64,000 bases of DNA from Haloterrigena sp. H1 (GTDB lineage Archaea > Halobacteriota > Halobacteria > Halobacteriales > Natrialbaceae). Location: NCBI RefSeq assembly GCF_005938085.1, contig NZ_SMZK01000001.1, positions 1,426,001 to 1,490,000 of the forward strand. Reading direction: 5' to 3'. Below, piece by piece: positions 16,428 through 21,316 of the stretch (positions are counted from its first letter, which is position 1; the number at the start of each line of letters is the position of its first letter). The notes under the pieces were generated by a model that was not told the DNA's origin, ran no database searches, and worked only from the letters and a program-made list of their open reading frames with translations. The translations under genes were made by a program, and so were the position numbers.

Positions 16428-16437
16428 TTTTATATAA
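16428..16437 (+). promoter_or_regulatory. TATA element of the 16490 operon
   Basis: TTTTATATAA is a strong archaeal TATA box. It predicts transcription start near 16460, about 30 bases before the flavin reductase ATG. The palindrome at 16465-16483 would begin just after that start. Confidence 0.6.
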
Positions 16438-16464
16438 TTAACAAAACCAGTATGGGGTGTGGGT

Positions 16465-16483
16465 GTCTATGTAACCCATAGAC
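16465..16483. promoter_or_regulatory. palindromic operator or leader hairpin before flavin reductase operon
   Basis: GTCTATG and CATAGAC are perfect 7-base arms around the spacer TAACC. The site lies between the predicted transcription start and the ATG at 16490, with only seven bases left before the start codon. This suits a repressor operator or a hairpin that controls access to the start. Confidence 0.6.
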
Positions 16484-16489
16484 AACTGA

Positions 16490-17095
16490 ATGACTCTCTC
16501 GAACGATCCCGACCTCGTCACGCTGCAGCCGGATCAATCGTTCTTCGAGACGCTGTATACGGCGGCACCGCTGGTGATCGTCGGGACGCGTGACGAAGAT
16601 GGCTCGGACGACTTGGCCCCGAAACACATGGCGATCCCGCTGGGCTGGGCGGACCAGTTCGGGTTCATCTGTACGCCCGAGCACGGAACGTACCGGAACG
16701 TCGAGCGGACGGAGGCGTTCACCGTGAGCTATCCTCGGCCCGACGACATCCTCGACGCCAGCCTCGCCGCGGCACCCCGGACCGCCGAGGGCGATAAACC
16801 CTCGCTGACCGAAATCGACACGGTCGACGCCGACGCCGTCGACGCGCCCGCCGTGGCTGGTGCCTACGGCGTCCTCGAGTGCGAACTCGACCGGATCGTC
16901 GAGTTCGACGACGGCGAACTCGTCGCCGGCACGGTCGTCGGCAAACACGTCCATACCGACGCCTACCGAAGCGACGACATCGAGCCCGAAACGCTGCTCG
17001 AGCAGGCCCCGGTGTTGGCACACCTCTATCCCGATCGGTTCGCCGCGATCAACGAAAGCCAGGCGTTCCCGTTCCCGGAGGGCTTCGAGCGATGA
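16490..17095 (+). CDS. flavin reductase-like FMN-binding split-barrel protein
   Basis: A 201-residue protein of the flavin reductase/FMN-binding split-barrel family. The segments LVIVGTRDEDGSDDLAPKHM and FICTPEHGTYRNVERTEAFTVSYP near the N-terminus match the flavin-binding strands of this family. Members reduce flavins with NAD(P)H or act as oxidoreductases with bound FMN; the substrate is unknown. Its stop overlaps the ATG of the M20 peptidase by four bases, so the two are coupled. The operon is preceded by the palindrome at 16465-16483. Confidence 0.82.
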   Translation: MTLSNDPDLVTLQPDQSFFETLYTAAPLVIVGTRDEDGSDDLAPKHMAIPLGWADQFGFICTPEHGTYRNVERTEAFTVSYPRPDDILDASLAAAPRTAEGDKPSLTEIDTVDADAVDAPAVAGAYGVLECELDRIVEFDDGELVAGTVVGKHVHTDAYRSDDIEPETLLEQAPVLAHLYPDRFAAINESQAFPFPEGFER

Positions 17096-18282
17096 CCGCC
17101 TCGGAACCGGAACCGGAATCCACCGCCGAACAGCGGATGCAAGAGTGGGCACACGCACATCGTGAGGGCCTGTCGCAGTACCTCCTCGAACTGGTCGAGA
17201 TGGAGACGCCCACGGAGAACCCCGAGACGTTCGACAACTTCTTCGAGCGGCTGGCGAGTGACCTCCGCGATGTCGGGCTGGAGACCGACCGCGTTCCGGG
17301 CGACGAGACCGGTGGCCGGCTCGAGGCGTGGACGCCGGGCCGAGACGACGACGAGATCCAGCTCGTGATCGGGCACGCGGACACCGTCTGGCCGCTCGGC
17401 ACCGTCGACGACGACCCACCCGAAATTCGCGACGATATCCTCGAGGGTCCGGGCGCGCTCGACATGAAAGGCGGCCTGACGCAGGTCGTCTTCGCGCTTC
17501 GGGCCCTCGACGACCTCTCGCTCGAGCCGTCGCTGCCGGTTCACGTCCTCGTCTCGAGCGACGAAGAGATCGGGAGCCCCGAATCCAAGTCCCGGATCAT
17601 CGACCTCGCAAAGCGGGCAAACCGCGTGTTCGTCCTCGAGCCCGCCAGCGGCCCGGAGGGCAAGATCAAGACCGCACGGAAGGCGGTCGGTCACTTCACG
17701 GTCACGATCGAGGGGAAGGCCGCCCACGCCGGACTCGAGCCCGAAGAGGGAGCCAGCGCGACGGAGGAACTCGGCACCGTCATCCATCGGCTCCACGAAC
17801 TCACCGATATCGACTCGGGCGTCACCGTCAACGTCGGGCAGGTGGAAGCGGGGCTGCGCTCGAACGTCGTTGCGCCGAACGCACGGGCCGAAGTCGATGT
17901 GCGCGCACCCACTGACGAGGCAGCCGAGGCCGTCTCGGCGGAGATTCGATCGCTCGAGGCCACGACACCGGGAACCGAACTGTCGATCGACGGTGGGTTC
18001 GGGCGACCGCCAATGGAACCGACGGCGGGCAATCGCTTGCTCTGGGAGCGTGTCCAGACGCTCGGAGACCGACTCGGACTCACGCTCGAGGGCACGCACT
18101 CGGGTGGTGCGAGCGACGGGAACGACGCCAGCCAGCACGCGCCTACGATCGACGGGTTCGGCGCGGTCGGCGACGGCGCCCACCAGACCTACGAGTACGT
18201 CGATCTCGAGGCACTCGTCGACCGAGTCTCGCTGCTTGCCGCCTGTTTGCACGACGAACCGCTTCCAACCGACCACAATTAG
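17092..18282 (+). CDS. M20 family metallopeptidase (glutamate carboxypeptidase-like)
   Basis: A 396-residue M20 dinuclear zinc hydrolase most like carboxypeptidase G2. The metal and catalytic set is complete: H in GHADTVWPLGT, D in GPGALDMKGG, the EE pair in SSDEEIGSPES, E in VLEPASGPEG, and a C-terminal H in THSGGASDGN. The peptidase domain is interrupted by the usual dimerisation domain (residues about 200-310). The family removes C-terminal glutamate or deacylates N-acyl amino acids; which applies here is unclear. The start is ATG 17092, overlapping the flavin reductase stop. A P-loop protein follows six bases later. Confidence 0.88.
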   Translation: MTASEPEPESTAEQRMQEWAHAHREGLSQYLLELVEMETPTENPETFDNFFERLASDLRDVGLETDRVPGDETGGRLEAWTPGRDDDEIQLVIGHADTVWPLGTVDDDPPEIRDDILEGPGALDMKGGLTQVVFALRALDDLSLEPSLPVHVLVSSDEEIGSPESKSRIIDLAKRANRVFVLEPASGPEGKIKTARKAVGHFTVTIEGKAAHAGLEPEEGASATEELGTVIHRLHELTDIDSGVTVNVGQVEAGLRSNVVAPNARAEVDVRAPTDEAAEAVSAEIRSLEATTPGTELSIDGGFGRPPMEPTAGNRLLWERVQTLGDRLGLTLEGTHSGGASDGNDASQHAPTIDGFGAVGDGAHQTYEYVDLEALVDRVSLLAACLHDEPLPTDHN

Positions 18283-18288
18283 TTACGC

Positions 18289-19296
18289 ATGAACGCAGAC
18301 GTTCACACCTCAGTCACGCGAATCGCCGATCTCGAGCAGCGCTCGTACGATATCGAATCCCGACCCACGTCACAGTGGGAAACGGGTGACTACGTGTTCG
18401 CCCGGGTGACCAAACGCCCCAACCCTGGCGTCAGGGTGGAGAACCCGCAGGGCCGACGCGTCGAACTGATGGAGGGTGAGACGATCGTCGGCGCGCTGGG
18501 GACCCGTCGCGCGACCCGCGAACTGGTCGGCAGCTGGCGGGATGTCGGCGACGATGGCCTGTTGAATATCCTGACCGGCGGCGGCGTTCTCGGTCGCGTC
18601 ACCTCGGCGTCGCCGTTCAGTAAGTCGCCGGTCGAGGTCGAATACGAGGGCCACGTCGTCGTCGACGACGACATCGCCCGGATGCGCGAGTACGGCCTGA
18701 CGGCGACATCGACACCGTCCGAGGTACCGGTCGTCCTCGTCCTCGGCACGAGTATGTCGGCCGGCAAGACCATGACCGGTCGGGTGATCACCCGCGTACT
18801 CGTCGAAAACGGGTACGACGTCGCCGCCTGCAAACTGACTGGAGCGGGCACCTACGGCGACGTGTTGTCGATGGAGGTGGCAGGCGCAGACCCCATCTAC
18901 GACTTCGTCGACGCGGGCCTGCCGACGACGGTCGTCCCCGAAGACACCTTCCGGGAGGCCGTCCGACCCGTCTTCGCCCGGCTCCAGGAGGCGGACGTCA
19001 TCGTCGCCGAGGTCGGGGCCAGCCCGCTCGAGCCGTACAACGGGGAAGCCGTCGTCGACATGCTCGCGGATCACGTCGCCTTCACTGTCCTCTGTGCATC
19101 CGACCCCTACGCAGTCGTCGGGATCGAGGAGGCGTTCGGACACTCGCCCGACCTCGTAGCCGGGATCACGACGAACACGACCGCCGGCGTCGACCTCGTC
19201 GAGGAACTCGTCGACTGCTCGGCGCTCAACGTCCAGAACGAGGCGGCCAAGGAACCGCTTGCGGAGTTACTGCTCGAGGCGCTCGCCGACGCTTAG
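18289..19296 (+). CDS. P-loop NTPase of unknown function (DUF1611/MobB-like)
   Basis: A 335-residue protein. The N-terminal half (to about residue 140) is a beta-rich domain of unknown role. The C-terminal half is a P-loop fold with GTSMSAGKT at about residues 153-161, followed by KLTGAGTYGD and EVGASPLEPYN. This resembles dethiobiotin synthetase, MobB and the DUF1611 family, some members of which are amino acid N-acyltransferases. It is the last gene of the operon with flavin reductase and M20 peptidase. An acyl transfer/deacylation pairing is possible but is inference only. It overlaps the rtcB stop by four bases on the opposite strand. Confidence 0.65.
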   Translation: MNADVHTSVTRIADLEQRSYDIESRPTSQWETGDYVFARVTKRPNPGVRVENPQGRRVELMEGETIVGALGTRRATRELVGSWRDVGDDGLLNILTGGGVLGRVTSASPFSKSPVEVEYEGHVVVDDDIARMREYGLTATSTPSEVPVVLVLGTSMSAGKTMTGRVITRVLVENGYDVAACKLTGAGTYGDVLSMEVAGADPIYDFVDAGLPTTVVPEDTFREAVRPVFARLQEADVIVAEVGASPLEPYNGEAVVDMLADHVAFTVLCASDPYAVVGIEEAFGHSPDLVAGITTNTTAGVDLVEELVDCSALNVQNEAAKEPLAELLLEALADA

Positions 19297-20753
19297 CCTT
19301 TGATGTTACAGACGGGGAACGTCCGCGCGACCTTGTCGCCGATCCCCAGTTCGTCGGAGACGCGGACGACCTCGTCGACGTCCTTGTAGACGCCCGGCGC
19401 TTCCTCGGCGACCGTCGCGCCCGACTGGGCCTTGACGTAGATCTGATCCTGTTCCTCCAACTGCTGTTGGACGTCGCCGCCCCAGTACTCGTTTTTGGCC
19501 TGCGTGCGGCTCATCAGTCGGCCCGCTCCGTGGGCGGTCGACCCGAACGTGAGGTCCATCGAGTTTTCGCCGCCCCGGAGGACGTAGCTGCCCGCGCCCA
19601 TGCTGCCGGGGATGATGATGGGCTGGCCGACGTCCCGGTAGGCTTTCGGGACGTCGGGATGGCCGGCGGGGAACGCTCGCGTCGCGCCCTTGCGGTGAAC
19701 GTAGAGCTCGCGCTCCTCACCATCGACCGTATGTGTCTCCTTTTTGGCGATGTTGTGGGCCACGTCGTACAGCAGGTCCATCTCCATGTCCTCCCACGGC
19801 CGGTCGAAGACGCGCTCGAAGACCTGTCGCGTGCGGTGCATGATCAGCTGGCGGTTGACCCACGCGAAATTGATCGCCGCGTTCATTGCACCGTAGTAGT
19901 CCTCGGCCAGCTGTGAACCCGCGGGCGCGGCCGCGAGTTCCTTGTCCGGCAACTGGTTCAATAGCCCCTGGTGTTGCTGCTCGATCTTCCGCAGGTAGTC
20001 GTTGCAGGTCTGATGGCCCAGCCCGCGGGAGCCACAGTGGATCAGGACGACGATCTGGTCTTCGGAAAGGCCGAACGCTTCGCCGACCGCGTCGTCGAAG
20101 ACGTCGGTCACGCGCTGGACCTCGAGGAAGTGATTCCCCGACCCCAGTGAACCGATCTGATTTTTCCCGCGGTCTTTGGCCTTCTGGCTGATCTTTTCTG
20201 GGGCTGCGCCATCGCGCATCCCCTCGTCTTCGCAGTGGAGCAGGTCGTCCTCGACGGCGTAGTCGTTCTCGAGGGCCCAGTCGACGCCGCGGGCGAGGAT
20301 CTCGTCGACGGTGTCGACGCCGGCCTCGACGACCCCGCCGCCGCCGAGTCCTGACGGAATGTTGGCGAAGAGGGAGTCGACGAGTTCCTCTTCGTGGCCC
20401 TTGAGGTCGTCGTAGGTCAGGTTCGTCCGCATCATCCGGACGCCGCAGTTGATGTCGTAGCCGACCGCGCCCGGCGAAATACAGCCGTTTTCGGCGTCGA
20501 GTGCGCCGACCCCGCCGACCGGGAAGCCATACCCCTGATGCCCGTCGGGCATACAGATCGCGTAGTTGGTGATGCCGGGCAGGTGGGTCGTGTTTTTGAT
20601 CTGTTCGAGCGTCTTGTCCTCCTCGATCTCCTTGAGGAGTTCTTTACTGGCCAGTACTCGCGCGGGGGTTCGCATGCCGTCTTCCTGGGGAATCTCCCAG
20701 ACGTACTCGCGCACCCGCTTGAGCGTGATGCCGTTTGCGTCGAAGGTGGTCAT
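19293..20753 (-). CDS. rtcB: tRNA-splicing RNA ligase RtcB
   Basis: A 486-residue RNA 3'-phosphate ligase that joins tRNA halves after intron removal and takes part in RNA repair. The guanylation and metal-binding landmarks are present: NYAICMPDGHQGYGFPVGG, GYDINCGVRMM, GSLGSGNHFLEVQ, HCGSRGLGHQ and the C-terminal HGAGRLMSRTQA with its nucleophilic histidine. I used ATG 20753 (MTTFDANGITLKRV); a longer open frame upstream has no family resemblance. Archease, its activator, is encoded 128 bases upstream on the same strand. Confidence 0.95.
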   Translation of the reverse strand: MTTFDANGITLKRVREYVWEIPQEDGMRTPARVLASKELLKEIEEDKTLEQIKNTTHLPGITNYAICMPDGHQGYGFPVGGVGALDAENGCISPGAVGYDINCGVRMMRTNLTYDDLKGHEEELVDSLFANIPSGLGGGGVVEAGVDTVDEILARGVDWALENDYAVEDDLLHCEDEGMRDGAAPEKISQKAKDRGKNQIGSLGSGNHFLEVQRVTDVFDDAVGEAFGLSEDQIVVLIHCGSRGLGHQTCNDYLRKIEQQHQGLLNQLPDKELAAAPAGSQLAEDYYGAMNAAINFAWVNRQLIMHRTRQVFERVFDRPWEDMEMDLLYDVAHNIAKKETHTVDGEERELYVHRKGATRAFPAGHPDVPKAYRDVGQPIIIPGSMGAGSYVLRGGENSMDLTFGSTAHGAGRLMSRTQAKNEYWGGDVQQQLEEQDQIYVKAQSGATVAEEAPGVYKDVDEVVRVSDELGIGDKVARTFPVCNIKG

Positions 20754-20881
20754 ACGCGAACGTCCGACCGCCGCGAAGAAAGATGTTCGTCTCTCGCCTC
20801 GTTTATCGAACGCTGGCCTGCGGTTCGACGGGGTGGACCCCCTTCTCGAGTCGGCCACCGGCGTGCCGGTGGGACTGTCGC

Positions 20882-21316
20882 TTAGACGTCGAAGACGACG
20901 TATGCTCCCCAACTCCCGTCATCGGTGCGCTCGAGGCGCATCTCGGAGTAGGTCACGGCCTTCACCTCGCGGGCGTCGATTTCGGAAAGCGGGACACCGC
21001 GGGCGCTGGCCTCGAGGGACCACTCCTCGGTGCCGTCGGCCGACTCGACGACGTCGATCGAGTCGACGCGGTGGTCGACGGGGAGTTCCGCCCGGACGTC
21101 TCGCAGATAGATCAGTTCATCGAGATAGTCGAACAGGAGCGCCTCGCGGCCTTCGGCTGTCACGGACAGGGAAAAGCGCTCGCCGCCGTCGGACGGGATC
21201 TCGTCACAGGAGGCGGCTGCGAGGCCACCGGCCACCGCCGCGAAGGTCGCCTCGAGCGTGTCGCCGGTCGCCGAGACCGCGATGTCGGCCGTGTGGTCGC
21301 GCAGTTCGAATCTCAT
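20882..21316 (-). CDS. archease (RtcB cofactor)
   Basis: A 144-residue archease. The opening FELRDHTADIAVSATGDTLE and the central LLFDYLDELIYLRD are family signatures, and the C-terminus carries VKAVTYSEM. Archease promotes guanylation of RtcB and turnover of the ligase. The location just upstream of rtcB, same direction, fits that partnership. Confidence 0.94.
   Translation of the reverse strand: MRFELRDHTADIAVSATGDTLEATFAAVAGGLAAASCDEIPSDGGERFSLSVTAEGREALLFDYLDELIYLRDVRAELPVDHRVDSIDVVESADGTEEWSLEASARGVPLSEIDAREVKAVTYSEMRLERTDDGSWGAYVVFDV

Follow-up and report, generated by a model that had tools for sequence, protein, structure and literature searches.

What do three tightly spaced genes of Haloterrigena sp. 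H1, encoding a flavin reductase-like protein (P0001), an M20 hydrolase (P0002) and a P-loop protein (P0003), do together? They lie within the window, by which we mean the whole 64,000-nucleotide stretch of DNA that was analysed. In our judgement there is about an even chance that the trio constitutes a self-contained pathway of three steps, an acylation, a redox change and a deacylation, which act on one amino acid or a close analogue.

Results

Genes and protein families

The first two genes overlap by four bases (ATGA), and six bases separate the second from the third, which are precisely the figures given in the initial annotation of this DNA. Its family assignments are borne out for two of the proteins. 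P0001 matches PF01613 (Flavin_Reduct) with 66.6 bits in a profile search (cut-off 27), and P0002 matches the M20 profiles PF01546 and PF07687 with 78.9 and 62.3 bits, respectively. The third assignment, a DUF1611/MobB-like NTPase for P0003, is in doubt, as described below. An NCBIfam search gave no name to either P0001 or P0003.

Table 1. Features of the trio locus (positions in the 64-kb window)
Feature	Positions	Strand	Length	Remarks
TATA-like run TTATATAAT	16430..16438	+		Predicted promoter element, this genome only
Operator-like inverted repeat GGGTGTGGGT-GTCTATGTA-ACCCATAGAC	16456..16484			Kept in relatives; about 6 nt 5' of the start codon
Perfect palindrome TGTCTATG-TAACC-CATAGACA	16464..16484			8+5+8; its end lies 5 nt upstream of the ATG
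P0001, FMN split-barrel protein of the flavin reductase-like family (PF01613)	16490..17095	+	201 aa	Cys61 invariant and specific to its clade
P0002, M20 metallo-hydrolase resembling carboxypeptidase G2	17092..18282	+	396 aa	Predicted N-acyl-amino-acid deacylase
P0003, P-loop protein whose N-terminal beta domain is separate	18289..19296	+	335 aa	Predicted N-acyltransferase

The trio is conserved and co-inherited

Conservation beyond the species, a check fixed beforehand, proved to be strong and exceeds by far what had been guessed. In all 34 complete loci of the trio P-loop clade the three genes are adjacent, and in 33 of these 34 they have the same order and strand, consistent with the single tight module that had been suggested. 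The archaeal scope implied at that time was too narrow, as complete loci occur in Haloarchaea, Cyanobacteria, Pseudomonadota and Bacteroidota. Of 146 genomes of the order, 5 have the P0001 family, and the trio-type P0003 clade is present in precisely these 5; pairwise distances among the P0001, P0002 and P0003 proteins are correlated with one another (0.93-0.96). When neighbouring genes were compared at bacterial and archaeal loci, no fourth conserved gene was common beyond close relatives.

The palindrome and the TATA-like run are confined to this genome

Both upstream elements noted initially, a TATA box and a 7+5+7 palindrome, are present, the latter in fact with longer arms (8+5+8), but both are specific to this genome. 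Neither is kept in the aligned upstream regions of Natrinema hispanicum, N. limicola and two Natronorubrum species, and the TATA-like run was not found at the aligned position in loci L002, L003, L004, L005 and L006. Such repeats are also not rare in the window, which holds 33 exact 8-bp inverted repeats with spacers of 3-8 (17.4 expected), including 7 with a spacer of 5 (2.65 expected). The 8+5+8 palindrome was rejected as a conserved operator in the form given, since relatives are without it. What the relatives keep just before the start codon is a different inverted repeat of the form CGTGGGT-N9-ACCCACG, with a conserved GTCTATR inside, which overlaps the palindrome. It occurs at the equivalent position in five Natrinema/Natronorubrum loci, where 5-7 of the 7 inner-arm positions match (6/7 in this genome and 7/7 in N. 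limicola).

P0003 resembles DUF1611 proteins in fold but is not a proper member of the family

P0003 carries a Walker A motif of the dethiobiotin synthetase (DTBS) type (GTSMSAGKT, residues 153-161), in which Lys160-Thr161 is invariant. Against PF07755 (DUF1611_C) it scores 23.6 bits (41/201 positions), below the cut-off of 25, or 26 bits in the whole-genome frame. PF17396 (DUF1611_N, the Rossmann-like N-terminal domain) has no match in P0003, whereas DgcN of the same genome reaches 110.8 bits. This true DUF1611/DgcN gene lies elsewhere, adjoining the enolase-family gene dgcA, and no dgcA was seen next to P0003 in the trio loci read. P0003 is not a proper DUF1611 member, contrary to the initial assignment.

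In the structure model (pLDDT 89), the N-terminal domain of P0003 is mostly beta and the C-terminal domain has the fold of DUF1611 proteins, among them DgcN. The top match is the DUF1611 structure 2g0t (Z 16.1, rmsd 2.9, 171 aligned); 2obn, another DUF1611 structure (Z 14.9, rmsd 3.1, 179 aligned), and DgcN, 7xrj (Z 14.2, rmsd 3.4, 175 aligned), also match. DgcN is an N-acetyltransferase according to the title of its PDB entry and to papers citing it. However, this structure search, which had been proposed as a check, does not single out the DUF1611 proteins, because the matches of the P-loop domain to CTP synthase (Z 15.6) and to DTBS (Z 14.7) are no worse than that to DgcN; the fold by itself therefore does not give acyl transfer, and an ATP-dependent ligase fits it equally. 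Such a ligase, of the dethiobiotin synthetase or CTP synthase kind, would link an amino group with a carboxylate or with CO2, or else amidate a carboxylate, and P0002 would later cut the bond, so that the order of steps would be the same and only the first chemistry would differ. The DTBS-type Walker A motif with its invariant Lys-Thr pair points in this direction, as does a search of the PDB with the P0003 family profile, which ranked MobB and DTBS first, albeit weakly. On the other side, the top structural match is a DUF1611 entry and DgcN is named an N-acetyltransferase; the relatives described in the next section bear on the same choice.

A PDB sequence search with P0003 alone returned chance matches only, and the N-terminal domain alone matched nothing convincing among solved folds (best Foldseek E 0.57; best Z 3.1, to a LexA chain). 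Comparison of the P0003 family with the genome's own DgcN by hhalign was weak (probability 9.6), which counts against the acylation-redox-deacylation pathway.

The DgcN-like fold of the P-loop domain, with an M20 deacylase at hand, could also suit a conversion of D- to L-amino acids via an N-acyl intermediate, with P0001 in place of DgcA, the epimerase of the DgcN-DgcA D-glutamate pathway; that pathway is reported in halophilic archaea, going by the title of a reference cited in PMC12363236. Yet a dgcN-dgcA pair is already present elsewhere in this genome, and the trio is without an enolase-family gene. In addition, we know of no flavin split-barrel racemase, and we consider this conversion very unlikely.

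Distant relatives of P0003 lie in arginine operons

Full-length relatives of P0003 are encoded between argG and argC in 14 Bacteroidota loci, where argD, the N-acetylornithine carbamoyltransferase gene, argB and usually argE follow downstream, and between argR and argC in one Pseudomonadota locus. Among the 21 genomes with an arginine-type relative that were checked, none has an ArgA over the cut-off or an ArgA2 GNAT, and 20 are without ArgJ, the exception being G378. In each of seven Bacteroidota operons that do not have the P-loop gene, ArgA2 stands directly upstream of argG. As these relatives sit in arginine operons of genomes without ArgA and ArgA2, and mostly without ArgJ, the P0003 superfamily probably consists of N-acyltransferases, with the arginine-type proteins predicted, from their operon position, to act at the N-acylglutamate-synthase step. 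In known pathways this step is carried out by acyl-CoA transferases, which argues against P0003 being a ligase of the kind outlined above, and we regard the ligase as unlikely. An acylating enzyme is also more likely than the generic NTPase of the initial annotation. At the same time, P0003 and the arginine-type proteins share only about 25-36% identity and form separate clades, which weakens the case for an acylation by P0003.

The trio itself was considered as an arginine-biosynthesis operon and rejected. Two trio-bearing Flavobacteria (G149 and G289) keep ArgA2-type genes, two other Bacteroidota genomes (G302 and G350) hold both a trio-type and a separate arginine-type P-loop gene, and no arg genes were found beside the trio at the loci compared.

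P0002 has the catalytic residues of M20 hydrolases

The closest solved structure to P0002 is carboxypeptidase G2 (CPG2; phmmer E 1e-31). The five metal ligands and the catalytic Glu (H95, D124, E158/E159, E183 and H364) align with those of CPG2 and are invariant or nearly so. The carboxylate-binding residues H212, N258 and R305 likewise align with CPG2 residues, which we take to be His229, Asn275 and Arg324. This likeness and these three kept residues favour the idea that P0002 is a folyl- or gamma-glutamate carboxypeptidase, acting on substrates of the kind raised initially, with P0001 and P0003 as helpers in cofactor salvage. The resemblance to CPG2 is, however, the sole support for folyl-glutamate, and CPG2-like M20 enzymes include aminoacylases as well. 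In the alignment, Lys193 of P0002 takes the place of CPG2 Ser210, which presumably lies near the gamma-carboxylate. Moreover, trio neighbourhoods contain no folate-related genes, and the idea leaves the P0003 relatives in arginine operons unexplained. It seems highly improbable to us.

P0001 belongs to a distinct clade of flavin split-barrel proteins

The nearest solved structures to P0001 are 1eje (MTH152), 4z85 (2-nitrobenzoate nitroreductase) and flavoredoxin, and FMN binding and redox activity are predicted from its family. Cys61 is invariant in its clade, which also shows an APKHMA-like motif. P0001 may also be a mere flavin reductase for an enzyme encoded elsewhere, which would count against a redox step within the trio's own pathway.

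The clade-specific Cys would fit salvage of an S-modified or damaged cysteine by N-acylation, flavin-dependent C-S cleavage and deacylation, as in the scm/ytn/yha systems of B. subtilis; this would be a special case of the pathway proposed here. The three enzyme roles equal those of the scm cluster (PMC12757645), and in a plasmid cluster of Priestia megaterium an M20 enzyme accompanies a P0003 relative, together with a luciferase-like monooxygenase. Against this, P0001 is not a luciferase-like monooxygenase, P0002 is closer to CPG2 than to ScmP/YxeP (1ysj), and the loci compared have no conserved cysteine or sulfur genes beside the trio. Cysteine salvage appears distinctly unlikely.

Discussion

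The reading that we prefer, in which the trio acylates, alters and deacylates one amino acid, builds on the families of the proteins, the residues in the active site of P0002, the obligate association and co-inheritance of the three genes, the DUF1611/DgcN-like fold of the P-loop domain of P0003 and the distant relatives of this protein in arginine operons. We infer that P0003 would transfer an acyl group, most likely taken from acyl-CoA, to the alpha-amino nitrogen, and that its P-loop would hold the phosphates of the cofactor. P0001, as an FMN split-barrel enzyme, would then perform or support a redox change on the acylated molecule, and P0002 would finally strip off the acyl group, freeing the product. 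As had been suggested initially, the trio would amount to a small pathway, and chemistry on an N-acyl amino acid is likely.

P0003 and its relatives might represent a new class of N-acyl-amino-acid synthases in which an N-terminal beta domain of unrecognised kind is joined to a P-loop fold. Of its two branches, one would be the missing N-acylglutamate synthase for arginine biosynthesis in many Bacteroidota, and the other would drive an undescribed three-enzyme pathway in archaea and bacteria. We put this forward tentatively, judging its chances to be somewhat short of even. That the module has stayed whole in archaea and in three bacterial phyla, with no assigned function that we could trace, points to an undescribed amino-acid pathway; in agreement with the initial annotation, no description of this enzyme set was found in the searchable literature.

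Several known systems share parts of this scheme. The DgcN-DgcA pathway (a DUF1611 N-acetyltransferase and an enolase-family epimerase) has the P-loop fold and N-acyl amino acid chemistry in common with the trio, but P0003 is without DUF1611_N, reaches the DUF1611_C threshold barely or not at all and has no adjacent dgcA, and the dgcN-dgcA pair of this genome is separate. P0001 is in the same split-barrel family (PF01613) as MTH152-type FMN-binding proteins and 2-nitrobenzoate nitroreductase, from which the invariant Cys and the APKHMA-like motif of its clade set it apart. Similarly, P0002 agrees with carboxypeptidase G2 and other M20 hydrolases in its metal ligands, its catalytic Glu and the residues that bind carboxylate; it differs from CPG2 in its distant sequence, in Lys193 and in always standing beside P0001 and P0003.

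By analogy, the logic of the pathway would be that of arginine synthesis and S-alkylcysteine salvage, with acylation and redox enzymes unrelated to theirs. To our knowledge, the scm acetyltransferase is not a P-loop protein. For S-(2-succino)cysteine, B. subtilis has an established route of acetylation, breakdown and deacetylation, in which an acetyltransferase acts first, then an FMN enzyme and finally an M20 deacetylase (PMC12757645); ScmL, ScmK and ScmP are encoded together in its scm (yxe) cluster, as are the enzymes of the trio. The scm FMN enzyme, however, is a monooxygenase, in contrast to the split-barrel P0001, the scm M20 enzyme is not the nearest relative of P0002, and no ScmK-kind FMN monooxygenase is conserved at the trio loci compared. 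The N-acyl arginine biosynthesis of Bacteroidota (ArgA2/BT3761 type) follows the same protect-modify-deprotect logic and uses an M20 deacylase as well; although ArgA2 is annotated as a GNAT and the trio has no arg genes, distant relatives of P0003 stand at the first step of that pathway in part of the phylum.

Results

The three genes form one module. Homologues of P0001 (the FMN split-barrel protein), P0002 (the M20 hydrolase) and P0003 (the P-loop protein) were adjacent in all 34 complete loci found by a genome-wide scan and further genome searches, in archaea as well as bacteria, bearing out the co-occurrence of the three families raised in the initial annotation. Gene order and strand were the same in 33 of the 34, the odd locus being that of Planktothricoides, where the P0001 and P0002 homologues diverge from that of P0003; in Crocosphaera, the contig ends within the locus. 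In the scan, relatives of P0003 occurred in Haloarchaea, Cyanobacteria, Nitrosomonas, one gammaproteobacterium and many Bacteroidota, the bacterial proteins being 40-48% identical. Within the order, the P0001 clade was present in 5 of 146 genomes, exactly the five that carry the P0003 clade typical of these loci (the trio clade). Pairwise distances of the three proteins correlate at 0.93-0.96 overall (29 loci), and at 0.72-0.82 when only distant pairs are considered. The distribution is patchy: one of six sampled genomes of the window's own genus carries the trio. Comparison of the neighbours gave no fourth common gene beyond close relatives.

In the window, the genes are as tightly spaced as first reported, with an ATGA overlap followed by a gap of six bases. 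P0003 and the RtcB gene are convergent, and their stop codons share TTAG (19293-19296). The window belongs to a haloarchaeal genome close to those of Natrinema hispanicum and N. limicola, whose third proteins are 97% and 96% identical to P0003.

Genes and other features of the trio and its relatives
Feature	Position	Strand	Description
P0001	16490-17095	+	PF01613 flavin-reductase-like split-barrel protein
P0002	17092-18282	+	M20 hydrolase
P0003	18289-19296	+	edge match to DUF1611_C P-loop domain
Upstream palindrome	16464-16484		8+5+8
dgcN-dgcA pair	L119:2799-4987 (own genome, contig C1, ~680.3-682.5 kb)		DUF1611_N + DUF1611_C, then enolase-family gene; 4-base overlap
arg-type genes, Bacteroidota	L107:5511-6581; also L095-L106, L110		between argG and argC
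arg-type gene, Pseudomonadota	L111:5619-6734		order argR, P-loop gene, argC, argB

RtcB and archease genes adjoin the trio in Natrinema (window 19293-21316) and lie about 2 kb off in Arenibacter (L016:533-2398); this proximity is probably due to chance. In a cyanobacterium (L090:4886-6868, genome G561), the trio seems damaged, with a stop codon in the matched P-loop frame and only its 3' half open, and this copy may be decaying.

The palindrome upstream of P0001 is real and longer than the 7+5+7 repeat described initially, but N. hispanicum, N. limicola and Natronorubrum share neither this palindrome nor the TATA run. The conserved element is instead an inverted repeat immediately 5' of the start codon that overlaps the window palindrome, CGTGGGT-N9-ACCCACG with GTCTATR inside; its inner arm positions are 7/7 in N. 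limicola and 6/7 in the window. It is plausibly a repressor or activator site, its conservation being partly inheritance because the species compared are close kin. The stretch at 16440-16455, AACAAAACCAGTATGG, 5' of the trio, is better conserved than the TATA run in related Haloarchaea, including Natronomonas.

The closest solved structure to P0002 is carboxypeptidase G2 (CPG2). Conserved residues include the metal ligands and catalytic glutamates of M20 enzymes (H95, D124, E158/E159, E183 and H364) and also H212, N258 and R305, the equivalents of CPG2 His229, Asn275 and Arg324. Cleavage of an amide beside a free alpha-carboxylate is therefore expected, the predicted target being either an N-acylated amino acid or a residue at a C-terminus. 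Lys193, Arg196 and Lys197 are nearly invariant, perhaps hinting at an acidic side chain in the substrate. For P0001, the closest solved structures are the FMN-binding protein MTH152 and 2-nitrobenzoate nitroreductase.

Neither P0001 nor P0003 received a name in an NCBIfam search, and the P0003 sequence had no convincing match in the PDB. A confident P0003 model was obtained from 19 relatives (pLDDT 89.4, pTM 0.89). Its C-terminal domain (~143-335) matches the DUF1611 structures 2g0t (Z 16.1) and 2obn (Z 14.9) and the N-acetyltransferase DgcN (7xrj, Z 14.2); CTP synthases and dethiobiotin synthetases match equally well. The N-terminal domain, modelled alone (pLDDT 89.1), had no convincing PDB match. 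The Rossmann-like DUF1611_N, present in the genome's own DgcN, was not matched in P0003. As modelled, the P-loop domain thus shares the DUF1611 fold, though P0003 is no DUF1611 member by domain content, since its DUF1611_C match is at edge level and DUF1611_N is absent. The genome's own dgcN lies elsewhere (C1, near 680 kb), directly 5' of an enolase-family gene, an arrangement as in the D-glutamate pathway.

Distant full-length relatives of P0003 (~25-36% identical) form a separate clade, the arg-type (support 100/99; trio clade 100/100). All 14 Bacteroidota loci of this type that were read have the gene between argG and argC of an arginine operon that continues, by NCBIfam names, with argD, N-acetylornithine carbamoyltransferase and argB, followed in most cases by an M20 deacylase of the ArgE/DapE type. 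Among 21 genomes picked for carrying an arg-type gene, ArgJ was absent from 20, ArgA2 was found in none, and ArgA exceeded the cut-off in none, its higher-scoring matches corresponding to ArgB, a related kinase. ArgA2 (BT3761), assigned earlier to this arginine step (PMC7311316, PMC9026213), directly precedes argG in 7/7 Bacteroidota arg operons lacking the P-loop gene. Given its position and these absences, the arg-type gene is the obvious candidate to encode the N-acylglutamate synthase that those genomes otherwise lack.

Could the trio-type protein be an arginine enzyme too? Two trio-bearing Flavobacteria (G149 and G289) also have ArgA2-type genes, the G289 match reading through stop codons, and two other Bacteroidota (G302 and G350) each carry trio-type and arg-type P-loop genes, which argues that the trio-type protein does a different job.

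In other Bacteroidota, the searches found no ArgA2 and no P-loop gene, implying further solutions to this step; many of them do have argC (G156, G159, G160, G161, G165, G166, G169-G171, G174 and G177; L120-L126 set).

On a Priestia megaterium plasmid (L033; NZ_CP085446.1, 81738-96538), genes for a P0003 relative, an M20 enzyme and a monooxygenase of the luciferase-like kind occur together with those for PEP mutase, a pair of thiamine-pyrophosphate subunits, two ATP-grasp ligases and an ornithine carbamoyltransferase, the last possibly for self-resistance. From its gene content this looks like a phosphonate cluster, so P0003 relatives would also enter such clusters. Another branch of the P-loop family lies directly 5' of an ABC transporter gene on Rhodobacterales plasmids (L034, L035, L036), two of which also have a gene for an alpha/beta-hydrolase immediately upstream; in a Bacteroidota locus (L109:5700-7693), a P0003 relative overlaps an isoaspartyl peptidase/asparaginase-type gene (PF01112) by four bases.

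Discussion

We propose that P0003 would acylate an amino group, using either acyl-CoA or ATP plus a carboxylate as the donor, that P0001 would carry out or feed a redox step, and that P0002 would take the acyl group off. As the initial annotation held, no description of this enzyme set was found, nor of its strict conservation across archaea and three phyla of bacteria, nor of a P-loop protein in the proposed acylating role, in a literature search outside of which most subscription journals lay, so that this absence is weak evidence. The operon-wide logic, in contrast, is already known: the strategy resembles the acylation, transformation and deacylation by which B. subtilis degrades S-(2-succino)cysteine, an established route that its authors liken to arginine synthesis (PMC12757645).
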